Source of the DNA: Microbacterium oryzae
GTDB taxonomy: Bacteria > Actinomycetota > Actinomycetes > Actinomycetales > Microbacteriaceae
Direction: 5' to 3'
Length of the DNA: 64,000 bases
Assembly (NCBI RefSeq): GCF_009735645.1
Contig: NZ_CP032550.1
Location: 1,674,001-1,738,000, forward strand
Below, one piece after another: positions 12,052 through 16,463 of this stretch. Position numbers and translations under genes: made by a program. Position 1 is the stretch's first letter. The number at the start of each line of letters is the position of its first letter. The notes beneath the pieces are model-generated. The model searched no databases. It was not told the origin of the DNA and saw nothing but the letters and a program-made list of their open reading frames with translations.

Positions 12052-13065
12052 ATGACTCAGAAGCGACCGACTCTCGCTGATGTGGCGAAGCTGTCCGGCA
12101 TGTCGAAGACGGCGGTCAGCCTGATTCTGAACGACCGCCCCGGATCGCGTCTCTCCCCGGAAGCAGCGGAGCGCATCCGGGCGGCCGCGGCTCAGCTCGG
12201 ATACAAGCCCAATCCCGCGGCTCAGAGTCTCCGTCTCGGGAAGACCCGCTCCGTCGGGTTCATCTCGGATGAGGTCACACTCACCCGCTACGCCTCGGGC
12301 ATGATCAAAGGCGTCCTCCATGCCGCGCGCGATCTCGACCACACCGTTCTCATCGCCGAGACGGAAGGCGACCTCGACAACGTGGGTCTCGCCATGGAGT
12401 CGATGCTCGACCGCCGCGTGGATGGCCTCATCGTCGGCCTGATGGGCGCGCGCGTCGTCGACCTGCCCCGGCCATCGCAGGACATCCCGCTCGTGATCGT
12501 CAACGGCCGCACCCCCACGGGCGTGCCGAGCATCTTGCCAGACGAGCGCGCAGCGGGGCGCGAGGTCGCGTCCGAGCTGATCGAGGCGGGGCACCGTCGC
12601 ATCGGGATCATCGGCGAACTCCCCGAGATCGCCGCGAACCCTCGCAAGAGCGTCTCGATCGGTGCTCGCTTCGTCGGCATTGACGAGGCGTTCGCTGCCG
12701 CCGGCATACGACCGGAGCGTATGCAACTCTCCGAGTGGAGCCCGGCGATCGGACACGACGCCGCGCTGGAGATGCTCGCGGCTTATCCCGACCTCACCGC
12801 CCTGTTAGCAGGCAACGACAACGTCGCCTTCGGCATCTTCCAGGCCCTGAGCTCTCTCGGCCTCCGCGTGCCGGAAGACGTCTCGGTGATCTCCTTCGAC
12901 GACGAGGAACTCGCCGGTTACCTGAGGCCGGGCCTGACCACCGCTCGGCTGCCCTACGAGGAGATGGCCCGCCTCGGCGTCGAGATGATCCTCGGACGCC
13001 GCGAACTCGCCGACGCCAGGATCACGATGCCTCTCATGCGCCGACAGTCGGTCGCCCGGATCTGA
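12052..13065 (+). CDS. LacI family transcriptional regulator of the sugar operon
   Basis: 337 residues, RBS AGGAGGAGCGG. The N-terminal helix-turn-helix reads TLADVAKLSGMSKTAVSLIL with hinge L-G-Y-K-P-N-P-A-A-Q-S-L-R at residues 43-57. A periplasmic-binding-protein-like effector domain fills the rest (V-G-F-I-S-D-E near 65; I-S-F-D-D-E near 280). Divergent from the sugar uptake operon with two palindromic operators between them, so it most likely represses that operon until a fructoside or a derived sugar binds. The effector identity is inferred from the neighbours only. Confidence 0.93.
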   Translation: MTQKRPTLADVAKLSGMSKTAVSLILNDRPGSRLSPEAAERIRAAAAQLGYKPNPAAQSLRLGKTRSVGFISDEVTLTRYASGMIKGVLHAARDLDHTVLIAETEGDLDNVGLAMESMLDRRVDGLIVGLMGARVVDLPRPSQDIPLVIVNGRTPTGVPSILPDERAAGREVASELIEAGHRRIGIIGELPEIAANPRKSVSIGARFVGIDEAFAAAGIRPERMQLSEWSPAIGHDAALEMLAAYPDLTALLAGNDNVAFGIFQALSSLGLRVPEDVSVISFDDEELAGYLRPGLTTARLPYEEMARLGVEMILGRRELADARITMPLMRRQSVARI

Positions 13066-13071
13066 TACTGC

Positions 13072-13669
13072 GGCTCCCTCCGCTCGCTCAGCGCACCGTA
13101 TGGGAGCTCTCCACCCCAGGACGTTGGTCGAACGGTCTCACGAACGGCTCACCCCGTCTCGTCTCGCTCCGCTCGCTGCCGGACGTTGAGCGACGGAGCG
13201 CCAGCGAGGGAGACGAAACGCCGTGACCCGGTCCCGACAACGGCCCGCCCCGTTTCGTCTCGCTCCGCTCGCTCAACGTCCGAGAGGGGAGGCACCCCAC
13301 CCCCCGGACGTTGAGCGACGGAGCGCCAGCGAGGGAGACGAAACGCGGCGACCCGGTCCTGAGAACACCTCGCCCCGTTTCGTCTCGCTCCGCTCGCCCA
13401 ACGTCCGAGAGAGGAGACACCCCAACCCCCCCCGGACGTTGAGCGACCGAGCGCCAGCGAGGGAGACGAAACGCGGCGACCCGGTCCCGAGAACACCTCG
13501 CCCCGTTTCGTCTCGCTCCGCTCGCCCAACGTCCGAGAGAGGAGACACCCCAACCTCCCCCCCCCCCCCCCCGGACGTTGAGCGACCGAGCGCCAGCGAG
13601 GGAGACGAAACGCGGCGACCCGGTCCTGAGAACACCTCGCCCCGTTTCGTCTCGCTCCGCTCGCTCAAC
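13072..13669. repeat. Tandem array of palindromic repeat family A
   Basis: About four imperfect tandem units spaced roughly 120-140 bp. Each has a left arm GACGTTGAGCGAC(C/G)GAGC then GCCAGCGAGGGAGACGAAAC, a spacer with CGGTCC(C/T)GA(G/C)AA, and a right arm CCCCGTTTCGTCTCGCTCC then GCTCG(C/T)(T/C)CAACGTCCGAGAG. A pure run of 16 C lies at 13557-13572 in a unit junction. No convincing gene is present. The array is broken at 13669/13670 by the IS110 element and resumes at about 14996. Confidence 0.9.
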
Positions 13670-13711
13670 TGTCACTGTGTATAGCGGCTGGCGGTGCTGG
13701 CTGGCAGGCTC

Positions 13712-13880
13712 GGTTCCGGTTGCTGGCTCGTGGTGTGACTCCTCGCTCAACTGGCCTCTCCCTCGGGGGAGTGCCTTGCACTCGATTCGTCCGCTGCGAG
13801 TTGGTGCCGGGACCGGCCTGGCCCATCGCGGTGACTTGATAGAAGCAAGCCTTCGTGGCTCCTGACAGTGTTGTCCCGCG
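13712..13880 (+). ncRNA. Putative IS110 bridge RNA in the 5' non-coding end
   Basis: Two stem-loops with guide-like internal loops can be read. The first (target-binding type) has outer stem GGTTCCGG (13712-13719) pairing with CCGGGACC (13807-13814) and contains CTCGCTCAACTG at 13742-13753, identical to the left insertion junction at 13660-13671. The second (donor-binding type) has outer stem CGCGGTGAC (13827-13835) with GTCCCGCG (13873-13880) and inner hairpin AGCC/GGCT. Its 5' side holds ATAGAAGC (13839-13846), identical to the right end (14986-14993), and its 3' side holds ACAGTG (13865-13870), complementary to CACTGT at 13673-13678. A right-target guide was not found. The fold is by eye. 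Confidence 0.55.
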
Positions 13881-13948
13881 GTGACTTCACCCCAGAACCG
13901 GTCCCGGCGTTCACGACCGTCCCGTTCGCTCGAAGTGGAGAGATCGCA

Positions 13949-14980
13949 ATGACAATCGTCGCAGAGCATTACCAGTTCGTCACGGGCGTGGACACCCACG
14001 CCCGCCGCCACCAGTTCGCGGTCCTCAACGCCGCCGGCCACGTCCTCGAGGAGCGCTCGTACCCGACCGATCCGGCCGGCATCGCCCGCAGCGTGGAATG
14101 GGCCCGGTCCCGAACTGCGGGAGGTGCCCTGCTGGTCTCGATCGACGGGGCCGGGTCGTACGGGCGGCTGCTGACGGACGCGTTCCTGCGCGCCGGGATC
14201 GATGTGACCCAGGCGCCCGTCATCCGGTACCGGCCCGACGGGAAAGACGACCGCATCGACGCCCGCCTGGCGGCATCGTCGGTGCTCCCGCTGGAGCAGG
14301 ACGCCCTCGCCCGCCCGCGCACCGGAGCGGAGCAGGAGGCGCTGCAGATCCTCCTCACCGCACGCACGAGCATGACCCGGGAACGCACCGCGACGATCAA
14401 CGCCCTCACCGGGCTGCTGCGCCGCCACGACCTCGGCATCGACGCGCGCCGGCCGCTGCGGACCGGGCAGATCGCGCAGATCGCCGCATGGCGATCCCAC
14501 CCCACTGACCCCCTCGACGCCGCCATCGCACGGCGAGAAGCGACCCGCCTGGCCCGCCGGATCCGGGAGCTCGCCGAGCAGCTCGTGGAGAACAACACCA
14601 CCCTGCGGGACCTCGTCACCGCCGTCGCCCCGCGACTGCTCGACGAGCCCGGCGTCGGCCCCGTCAGCGCCGCGACGGTCTACGTCGCCTGGTCCCACCC
14701 CGGCCGGGTCCGCTGCGAGGCCGCGTTCGCGCGCCTGGCGGGCGTCGCCCCGAAACCCGTCTCCACCGGCAACCATCACCGCCACCGCCTCGACCGCACC
14801 GGCGACAGACGCCTCAACGCCGCCCTCCACCGCGTCGTCATCACCCGCTGGCGCGCACACCCGCAAACCCTCGAATACACCGCCCGCCGCCGAGCCGAAG
14901 GACGCACCGACCGCGACATCCGACGCGCCCTCAAACGCATCGTCGCCCGTCAACTCTTCCGACTCCTCCAAGCCAGTTGA
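13949..14980 (+). CDS. IS110-family transposase/recombinase
   Basis: 343 residues from the ATG at 13949, which has GGAGAGA upstream; a longer frame from 13868 would overlap the non-coding end. The N-terminal RuvC-like DEDD domain has Asp15 (G-V-D-T-H-A-R), Asp101 and Asp104 (K-D-D-R-I-D-A-R). The second acidic position, usually Glu in E-G-T-G-S-Y-G, is Asp66 here (S-I-D-G-A-G-S-Y-G). The C-terminal domain has helix-hairpin-helix L-D-E-P-G-V-G-P-V-S and the catalytic serine block G-V-A-P-K-P-V-S-T-G with Ser272. Apart from Glu to Asp it looks intact and full length. Confidence 0.92.
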   Translation: MTIVAEHYQFVTGVDTHARRHQFAVLNAAGHVLEERSYPTDPAGIARSVEWARSRTAGGALLVSIDGAGSYGRLLTDAFLRAGIDVTQAPVIRYRPDGKDDRIDARLAASSVLPLEQDALARPRTGAEQEALQILLTARTSMTRERTATINALTGLLRRHDLGIDARRPLRTGQIAQIAAWRSHPTDPLDAAIARREATRLARRIRELAEQLVENNTTLRDLVTAVAPRLLDEPGVGPVSAATVYVAWSHPGRVRCEAAFARLAGVAPKPVSTGNHHRHRLDRTGDRRLNAALHRVVITRWRAHPQTLEYTARRRAEGRTDRDIRRALKRIVARQLFRLLQAS

Positions 14981-14995
14981 CACACATAGAAGCTT

Positions 14996-15192
14996 CGTCC
15001 GAGAGAGGAGACACCCCAACCCCCCCCGGACGTTGAGCGACCGAGCGCCAGCGAGGGAGACGAAACGCGGCGACCCGGTCCCGAGAACACCTCGCCCCGT
15101 TTCGTCTCGCTTCGCTCGCTCAACGTCCGAGAGGAAAGGACCCACCCCACCCCGTTTCGTCTCGCTTCGCTCGCTCCACGCCCGAGAAGGGA
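14996..15192. repeat. Palindromic repeat family A, right of the IS110 element
   Basis: Continuation of the interrupted array: CGTCCGAGAGAGGAGAC, a C-run, one complete left arm with GCGCCAGCGAG, then right arms with GCTTCGCTCG at 15110-15130 and 15157-15180. It ends before the tuf terminator. No gene is seen between the transposase stop and tuf. Confidence 0.88.
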
Positions 15193-15218
15193 CCACGGCC
15201 ATCCCCGGGGTACGCGAA

Positions 15219-15248
15219 AGCGGGGCCGCCCCGAAGGGCGACCCCGCT
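15219..15248 (-). terminator. tuf terminator hairpin
   Basis: AGCGGGG (15219-15225) and CGCCC (15227-15231) pair with GGGCG (15236-15240) and CCCCGCT (15242-15248) around a CGAA loop. On the minus strand it lies 21 bp after the tuf stop and is followed by TTTCGCG, a weak T-run as is usual for actinobacterial terminators. Confidence 0.8.
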
Positions 15249-15269
15249 GACGAAGCGAGTTCGAAGAAC

Positions 15270-16463
15270 TTACTTGATGATCTTGGTCACCGTGCCGGCG
15301 CCGACGGTGCGGCCACCCTCACGGATCGCGAAGCCGAGGCCCTCTTCCATGGCGATGGGCTGGATGAGCTCCACCGTCATGTCCGTGGTGTCGCCGGGCA
15401 TGACCATCTCGGTGCCCTCAGGCAGCGAGATGACGCCGGTGACGTCCGTGGTGCGGAAGTAGAACTGCGGGCGGTAGTTCGTGTAGAAGGGGTTGTGACG
15501 CCCACCCTCGTCCTTGGACAGGATGTACGCGGTGCCCTCGAAGTTGGTGTGAGGGGTAACCGAACCCGGCTTCACGACGACCTGGCCGCGCTCGACGTCC
15601 TCGCGCTTGAGGCCACGGAGCAGGAGACCGCAGTTCTCGCCGGCCCATGCCTCGTCGAGCTGCTTGTGGAACATCTCGATACCGGTGACCGTGGTCTTCT
15701 GCGTCGGGCGGATGCCGACGATCTCGACCTCGGAGTTGATCGCGAGGGTGCCACGCTCGGCGCGGCCCGTGACGACGGTTCCACGACCGGTGATCGTGAA
15801 GACGTCCTCGATGGGCATGAGGAACGGCTTGTCCTTGTCACGCACCGGGTCGGGGATCGACTCGTCGACGGCGTTCATGAGCTCGACGATGGACTCGGTC
15901 CACTGAGCGTCGCCCTCGAGAGCCTTGAGGCCCGAGACGCGGACGACAGGAGCGTTGTCGCCGTCGAAGTCCTGCGACGAGAGGAGCTCGCGAACCTCGA
16001 GCTCGACGAGCTCCAGGATCTCCTCGTCGTCGACCATGTCCGACTTGTTCAGCGCGACGAGCAGGTAGGGAACGCCGACCTGCTTGGCGAGCAGCACGTG
16101 CTCACGCGTCTGAGCCATGGGACCATCGGTCGCGGCGACCACGAGGATCGCGCCGTCCATCTGGGCGGCACCGGTGATCATGTTCTTGATGTAGTCAGCG
16201 TGACCAGGGGCGTCGACGTGAGCGTAGTGACGCTTGGGCGTCTCGTACTCGACGTGCGAGATGTTGATCGTGATGCCGCGCTGGCGCTCCTCGGGAGCGG
16301 AGTCGATCGACGAGAAGTCGCGCTGGACGTTGGTGGCCGACGGGAACTTGTCGGCGAGCACCTTCGAGATCGCCGCGGTGAGCGTCGTCTTGCCGTGGTC
16401 GACGTGACCGATCGTTCCGATGTTCACGTGCGGCTTGGTGCGCTCGAACTTGGCCTTAGCCAC
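15270..16463 (-). CDS. tuf: Translation elongation factor Tu
   Basis: 397 residues, GTG start with GAGGAGGACCCA upstream. Domain 1 GTPase motifs are all present: G1 GHVDHGKT near residue 19, G2 with R-G-I-T-I, G3 D-A-P-G-H, G4 N-K-S-D. Domains 2 and 3 follow, ending [11 protein letters not shown]. It delivers aminoacyl-tRNA to the ribosome. Last gene of the str cluster, 162 bp after fusA with a terminator-like hairpin in the gap, so it probably also has its own promoter. Confidence 0.99.

Follow-up and report, generated by a model that had tools for sequence, protein, structure and literature searches.

An IS110-group insertion in a REP-like repeat of Microbacterium oryzae and the predicted bridge RNA of its left end

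The element, its insertion site and its recombinase

Analysis of the window (the whole stretch of 64,000 nucleotides under study) uncovered an IS110-group element inserted in a REP-like intergenic repeat (Table 1). The unit is 13669-14995 or 13670-14996, the core C being present at both ends. It is flanked by a gene for what we take, from its translation, to be a LacI-type regulator (12052-13065) and by a gene on the minus strand that is presumably tuf (15270-16463), and it sits within arrayed inverted REP-like repeats in the region 13201-15200 (GTTTCGTCTCGCT...GCTCAACGTCCGAG and the inverse). The 3.04 Mb genome contains CTCGCTCAACGTCCGAG 11 times and has 58 places with at most two mismatches to CTCGCTCAACNTCCGAG, the 17-base REP core, versus one for the reversed control. 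Long overlapping open frames run through these GC-rich repeats and the RNA region (for example 704 codons at 13088-15202, minus strand) and are unlikely to be genes.

Table 1 Features of the element and its flanks (all on the forward strand; positions of the window)
Feature	Position	Strand	Remarks
Left flank, REP-like repeat	13641..13668	+	13661-13668 = left target (TCGCTCAA), ending in target positions 6-7 (AA)
IS110-group element	13669..14996	+	core C (position 8) at both ends, 13669 and 14996
Putative -10 of circle promoter, CACTGT	13673..13678	+	poor
5' stem-loop of bridge RNA	13685..13703	+	consensus helices 1-2
Target-binding stem-loop	13707..13819	+	helices 3-6; changes on both sides in 20/29 pairs
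Left target guide, CTCGCTCAAC	13742..13751	+	13743-13750 = left target, 8/8; 13751 = core C
Right target guide, CACTC+G	13779..13784	+	position by homology; G pairs with core C
Target-loop handshake bases, AT	13785..13786	+	expected partners: donor positions 7-6 (TT, 14995-14994)
Donor-binding stem-loop	13824..13883	+	helices 7-8
Left donor guide, ATAGAAGC	13839..13846	+	= element right end 14986-14993, 8/8
Right donor guide, TGACAG	13863..13868	+	reverse complement of CTGTCA 13669-13674, 6/6
Donor-loop handshake bases, TG	13869..13870	+	expected partners: target positions 7-6 (AA)
DEDD recombinase, 343 aa	13949..14980	+	Pfam PF01548 (3.1e-18), PF02371 (3.6e-16), both above cut-off
Putative -35 of circle promoter, TTGACA	14977..14982	+	overlaps stop codon
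Right end	14986..14995	+	left donor ATAGAAGC, then N6 T7 = TT
Right flank, rest of REP-like repeat	14997..15040	+	GTCCGAGAGAGG...

The recombinase carries residues D15, D66, D101 and D104, with Asp at the Glu column of the DEDD signature in the window copy (D66) and in the homologs L005 and L006, versus Glu in the 25 others. Its nucleophile column is occupied by Thr273, where all 27 other aligned recombinases have Ser; the catalytic serine of the C-terminal SG motif, a trait of the IS110 group, is therefore missing from this copy. Searched alone with phmmer, the recombinase sequence has no match in the PDB up to E 1, and a related-locus search with the same single sequence returned no relatives, so a protein search of genomes was used instead. 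A profile built from 28 recombinases matches IS621 (E 8.8e-25) and ISCro4 (E 7.9e-24) in the PDB, and its SG motif aligns on S241 of IS621, with a chain-numbering offset of two inferred from D11.

The element has a non-coding left end of about 280 bases upstream of the recombinase gene and about 15 bases downstream of it, as is characteristic of the IS110 group. The longest exact inverted match between its first and last 70 bases is 6 bases; IS1111 elements, unlike the IS110 group, possess long (7-17 bp) subterminal inverted repeats. On its domains, those of a DEDD recombinase with Transposase_20, and on its relatives, we assign the element to the IS110 group of the IS110 family. It is the only full DNA copy found in its genome, where no other PF01548 gene was found either.

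A two-loop RNA in the left end

The protein search (E <= 1e-30) recovered matches in 47 of 295 genomes of the genus and 25 of 299 genomes of the family, the own genome being in both counts. The genome of L013 has five full-length matches and that of L014 has three. Including further copies, 80 loci have a recombinase match, 55 of them at 44% identity or above. From the 80 we chose 46 insertions for guide analysis, using a left-end pattern that demanded CT at positions 8-9; the right end was found in 39 of these. Nine of the 55 were excluded: L001 (the window copy again), L064, L065 and L070 (left end missed by the pattern), L044 and L061 (fragments), L022 (masked), L023 (interrupted), and L072 (without a left end).

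The preliminary description had proposed that the 5' non-coding end encodes a bridge RNA folded into two stem-loops, target before donor. Alignment of the 34 distinct left-end RNAs among the 46 insertions bears this out: the consensus shows a 5' stem-loop followed by two long hairpins that both contain a large internal loop, target and then donor, which is the conserved arrangement that marks a bridge RNA. The structure covaries strongly, with changes on both sides in 36 of 54 pairs. Paired cells amount to 92.8%, compared with 80.5% in shuffles, a control that ignores the relatedness of the RNAs, and with 34-47% (maximum 47.1%) when the structure is slid along the alignment, a control that takes relatedness in, yet favours a structure derived from these same sequences. 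Cells changed on both sides number 225, against 74.0 in the shuffle control. The window RNA itself (13683-13885) folds at -106.3 kcal/mol (z = -3.65), and none of 200 shuffles reached so low a value.

A covariance model was made from 29 of the 34 aligned RNAs, leaving out the window copy. It nevertheless matches 13727-13885 with 109.5 bits (E 6.5e-28), the sole match in the 64 kb and in the genome. When given 22 of the 25 more distant loci, whose recombinases are 33-41% identical, the model finds the RNA in 21 (E <= 0.001); the one miss is L055, where the left end is incomplete upstream. The bridge RNA is therefore a feature of a wide clade. A search of 13400-15300 against Rfam gave no match to a bridge RNA family, and its eight hits all lie under the gathering score.

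Guides, handshake bases and junctions

Chance was evaluated for the window copy with 20000 dinucleotide shuffles of 13681-13948. The 12-mer CTCGCTCAACTG (13742-13753), previously reported as identical to the sequence across the left junction (13660-13671), is contained in 2 shuffles, the 10-mer CTCGCTCAAC in 14, TCGCTCAA in 71, and the left donor guide ATAGAAGC, whose identity to the right end had also been reported, in 2. These sequences are so rare in the shuffles that the left-target and left-donor matches are beyond chance. As a target match, the 12-mer is too long at its 3' side: the identity holds, but its final TG lies within the element and the preceding C is the core, which leaves TCGCTCAA plus the core C, with one further C in front, as the target match proper. 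For the right donor guide, ACAGTG (13865-13870) had been suggested as complementary to the left end; it is the reverse complement of 13673-13678, but its register is not that of a guide, which homologs place two bases earlier. ACAGTG/CACTGT was thus dropped in favour of TGACAG/CTGTCA; in 44 of 46 insertions the counterpart of the latter matches 6/6. Both are weak alone, ACAGTG being contained in 832 shuffles (about 4%) and TGACAG in 1132.

A right target guide, earlier described as not visible, is present by homology, followed by its handshake bases, and is a poor match: it predicts GAGTG where the flank has GTCCG, 2/5 plus the core. The target-loop handshake fits at position 7 and not at position 6, the sole misfit among 39 insertions, and the donor-loop handshake likewise fits at position 7 and not at position 6. 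An alternative same-sense guide, TTCGTCCG (13786-13793, identical to the right flank at 14994-15001), was rejected, as 224 of 20000 shuffles contain it and a N-TGTCC box 3' of the right target guide occupies its place in most homologs.

Insertions of the nearest homologs (L005-L007; recombinases 59-62% identical) allow the guide to be compared with other sites. Two of them have the same RNA, all three keep the loop TCGCTCAAC as left target guide, and, as in the window copy, all are inserted in TCGCTCAAC-G sites. For the window copy, L005, L006, and L007, the right target guides predict GAGTG, GAGTG, GAGCG, and GAGCG, and the flanks read GTCCG, GACCG, GAGCG, and GGGCG. The predictions thus match the REP flanks at 2, 3, 5, and 4 of 5 positions, the window copy being the worst of the four, and the right target guide is therefore probably real. 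No insertion was found that keeps this loop at an unrelated site, and homologs with other loops mostly lie in their own matching sites.

In order to compare own with foreign sites, the 46 insertions were grouped into 23 guide combinations (classes), of which 19 entered the tests of the right target guide and target-loop handshake. Positions are numbered as in IS621, and each test used 20000 permutations, which ignore the relatedness of the classes. The left target guide matches its own target at 5.91 of 8 positions on average and those of other classes at 2.14 (own best or tied in 18/23 classes), the right target guide at 4.13 versus 1.33 of 5 (16/19), and the right donor guide at 5.91 versus 4.96 of 6 (22/23). 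The handshake follows the same pattern, with 0.91 versus 0.38 at position 6 of the target loop (17/19 classes) and 1.55 versus 0.58 of 2 in the donor loop (15/23), although the latter test depends on the left target guide, since both follow X6 X7. None of the 20000 permutations equalled the observed value in any of the five tests.

By insertion, the left target guide, allowed a one-base register freedom, fits 8/8 in 15, 7/8 in 17, 6/8 in 11, 5/8 in 2, and 4/8 in 1 of the 46; the best of three registers thus gives at least 6/8 in 43/46, where foreign pairs average 3.00/8. Nine guides (L017, L018, L020, L024, L034, L035, L037, L039, and L058) score 1-3/8 and fit only after the one-base shift. 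Poor fits are the left target guides of L011 (2/8) and L028 (1/8), and the right target guides of L015 (1/5) and L016 (2/5). The right target guide fits 5/5 in 22/39 and 4/5 in 10/39, with 37, 36, 32, 32, and 30 of 39 fitting at positions x9 to x13, and the last five bases of the left donor guide equal the right end in 36/39, two of the three misses (L035 and L039) being parse faults. The target-loop handshake fits at position 7 in 39/39, a constant position that shows nothing alone, and at position 6 in 38/39; the donor-loop handshake fits in 33/46 and 40/46, respectively. Distant relatives with one common right target guide differ at N6 (L046 G, L047 A, L074 T). Guides are mostly framed, at about 10 bases, by TGNCT-like and TGNCC-like boxes.

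Left junctions read as the left target (ending in X6 X7), C8, T9, and then GT or CT, while right junctions read ATAGAAG-x-N6-T7-C8-x9 (also with GGAG). The REP repeat without the element is CTCGCTCAACGTCCGAG, and the insertion is CTCGCTCAA-CTGTCA...GAAGC-TT-CGTCCGAG, in which TT is extra. The flanks of L017, joined without NT, match uninterrupted transposase genes, which we take from a motif to be of the ISL3 type; 29 of 30 loci are contiguous, (A/C)TC-AA(C/T)G with no NT, and the remaining one is the interrupted copy itself. L018, L020, L034, L058, and L070 have flanks similar by eye to those of L017. The site of L014 without an element aligns in one piece to a record annotated as istB (184 query to 184 record bases, 90.2% identical), and L014, L068, and L069 form the istB-aimed class. 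The joined flanks of L047 align to IS3-family transposase genes with no difference in length (219 to 219 in H3), with L046, L074, and L075 in a site that looks alike by eye. As the uninterrupted REP, transposase, and istB sites lack NT, the dinucleotide belongs to the element. A two-base core NT common to target and donor was dropped on the same grounds, and the two target bases ahead of the insertion are, judging by eye, not duplicated, since they read AA, GA, CT, or AT and differ from the NT. One insertion outside the 46 (L022) has GA, with A7, in place of NT.

At the right junctions C8 and T7 are each present in 39/39, and target position 9 is A in 14, G in 12, C in 12, and T in 1; the REP-like target of the window copy has C8 G9. 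The CT core dinucleotide that target and donor share in IS621 is thus absent here, with T at x9 in 1/39. Left ends carry the donor's T9 and right ends the target's x9, which argues that the crossover, or the inherited strand, lies 5' of position 9. The left junctions of L064 and L070 have TT instead of CT at positions 8-9, with T9 still present. This TT could be a trace of a crossover between 8 and 9 or, with equal likelihood, a mutation, because uninterrupted ISL3-like sites have no T8 (among 45 matches, a few places being counted twice, C8 in 43 and G8 in two).

Interpretation and relation to known systems

With a probability of about 0.93, we read the locus as an IS110-group insertion in a REP-like repeat that encodes a bridge RNA in its left end, with guides and a crossed handshake, in a copy that is perhaps immobile. 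Comparison shows that the target loop matches the left target on its left side and the right target on its right side, and that one side of the donor loop matches the right end of the element and the other side its left end. The two bases after the right target guide fit donor positions 7-6, and those after the right donor guide fit target positions 7-6, a crossed handshake as for IS621. Transcription of the bridge RNA would depend on a promoter restored where the circle closes; the RNA would load the recombinase with target and circle, and strands would then be swapped beside the single shared base C8.

In the circle of the window copy, the putative -10 would stand 17 bases from TTGACA with NT and 15 without. 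Spacing between TTGAC(A) and the -10 is 17-18 with NT in 23 of 23 distinct junctions and 15-16 without, for -10 hexamers that we chose on these very sequences. The junctions fall into two classes, and the offset of three bases that separates them in -10 position also separates them in right-end length. One end class, other than that of the window copy, was scanned for head-to-tail junctions; this returned 38 matches, none with an actinobacterial title, which were judged to be chance from organism titles alone.

Could the loop matches be captured copies of the surrounding repeat, or chance in a GC-rich, repeat-laden region, with no guide function? The left guide is identical to a repeat that occurs at dozens of places in the genome, and TCGCTCAA alone recurs in the shuffles at the frequency given above; however, homologs inserted elsewhere than in REPs differ in their loops, which at this position of the RNA match the different sites of those homologs (23 classes, 0/20000), and the structure covaries, leaving this the least credible reading. 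Scarcely more credible is a leader that regulates translation of the recombinase while the protein chooses the target. Such a role would suit a very stable RNA located immediately before the start codon, and PMC8450116 reports small RNAs that act on the expression of ISPpu9, but in each element the sides of the loops track its target and donor sequences and the stems still pair, which targets read by the protein would not need.

Improbable, if less so than either of these, is that the target DNA itself contains NT, so that the core would comprise two bases in the usual manner of IS621, with no addition. The target loop covaries with N6 as if it were a target base, and T7 is constant. Against this, an exact search for TCGCTCAATTCG found no occurrence in the four genomes that carry this type of element, the transposase and istB sites free of an element run on without NT, the IS621 donor also has A6 T7 before the core in the passages of PMC11208158, and the promoter spacing needs NT in the circle. 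A bridge RNA with NT supplied by the element remains our preferred reading.

A further proposal concerns the clade: that donor and target share only C8, that the crossed guides set the joining of strands, and that strands cross over 5' of position 9, at a place upstream of the top-strand cut of IS621. We put this forward tentatively, at somewhat less than even odds. The target loop would be the complement of donor positions 6-7 and the donor loop that of target positions 6-7, such that pairing would be poorer before the exchange and fuller after it. If true, handshake pairing would rank among the chief determinants of specificity in natural bridge RNAs and would be more than a fine adjustment. 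Bridge RNAs are under development as programmable recombinases, for which the limits set by core and handshake are practical questions, and in this clade 23 guide combinations are available from nature together with their targets, in which pairing is crossed at two positions in both loops and the second base of the target core is free. The relatives also show natural re-aiming of bridge-RNA guides. This clade-level pattern of core and handshake is the part worth a specialist's time; the window copy is in the main one more bridge-RNA member, probably a stranded one.

Mobility of this copy is the less certain component of our explanation. It is probably immobile or weak, because it has Thr at the nucleophile, its right target guide is partly mismatched, as is its handshake, and its genome was not found to contain another IS110 recombinase. 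Full activity, with Thr273 tolerated, is unlikely, although the reading frame and ends are intact and the left target guide and both donor guides match in full. Weighing against it are the Ser of all 27 other aligned recombinases, the single genomic copy, the weak right target guide, and the report that mutation of S241 abolished IS621 recombination (PMC11208158, in a passage that does not state the substitution).

Comparisons with known systems drew on passages of the IS110-family literature (PMC11208160, PMC11208158, PMC11187229, PMC12500396, and PMC1525189). IS621 of E. coli (Durrant et al. and Hiraizumi et al. 2024) is the right model for this layout, as had been proposed, except that target and donor share one core C here and not a CT dinucleotide. 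Like the present element, it belongs to the IS110 group, has its RNA in a long left end with the target loop before the donor loop, four guides of the same strand polarity, handshake bases 3' of the right target and right donor guides, C8 T9 as the donor core, T at donor position 7, and a REP target. In some orthologues the right target guides are reported to be longer than that of IS621, as in the present clade. According to passages of PMC11208158, the core of IS621 is C8 T9, its T hardly ever varies, and cleavage of the top strand follows this base, whereas at 38/39 right junctions of our clade the target has A, G, or C in position 9, leaving only C8 in common. The IS621 recombinase is only distantly related to that of the window copy, and the boxes framing the present guides were compared within our clade.

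The seekRNA of IS110/IS1111 elements (Siddiquee et al. 2024, with ISEc21 as the IS110 example) is the same phenomenon under another name, including natural re-targeting by a change of loop. The passages of that work describe a seekRNA carrying target matches, with donor guides and handshake unmentioned in them, and make the case that the family is not characterised by duplication of the target. ISKrh6 of Kocuria is likewise an actinobacterial IS110 element, for which passages of PMC12500396 note a seekRNA-determining region, give no guide, and say that the ends need experiment. A search of titles in the open literature found none on bridge RNAs of this genus or clade, which we do not take as absence from print.

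ISAar29 is, by its name, presumably also actinobacterial. It and other IS110-group elements have predicted bridge RNAs (Extended Data Fig. 10 of Durrant et al.), and the pattern of our clade may already be visible in that figure.

Several guide classes are aimed at other insertion sequences (ISL3-type transposase, istB of IS21, and IS3-family transposase), which suggests that these relatives have a habit of landing in competitors' genes. In L009 and L010, from two genomes, 695 bases separate the recombinase stop from the right end, and in L012 518 bases do so; the stretch in L009/L010 contains an opposite-strand open frame of 169 codons with a lipoprotein-like stretch (SALALSACVPP), and these extended right ends are possibly cargo in IS110 elements.
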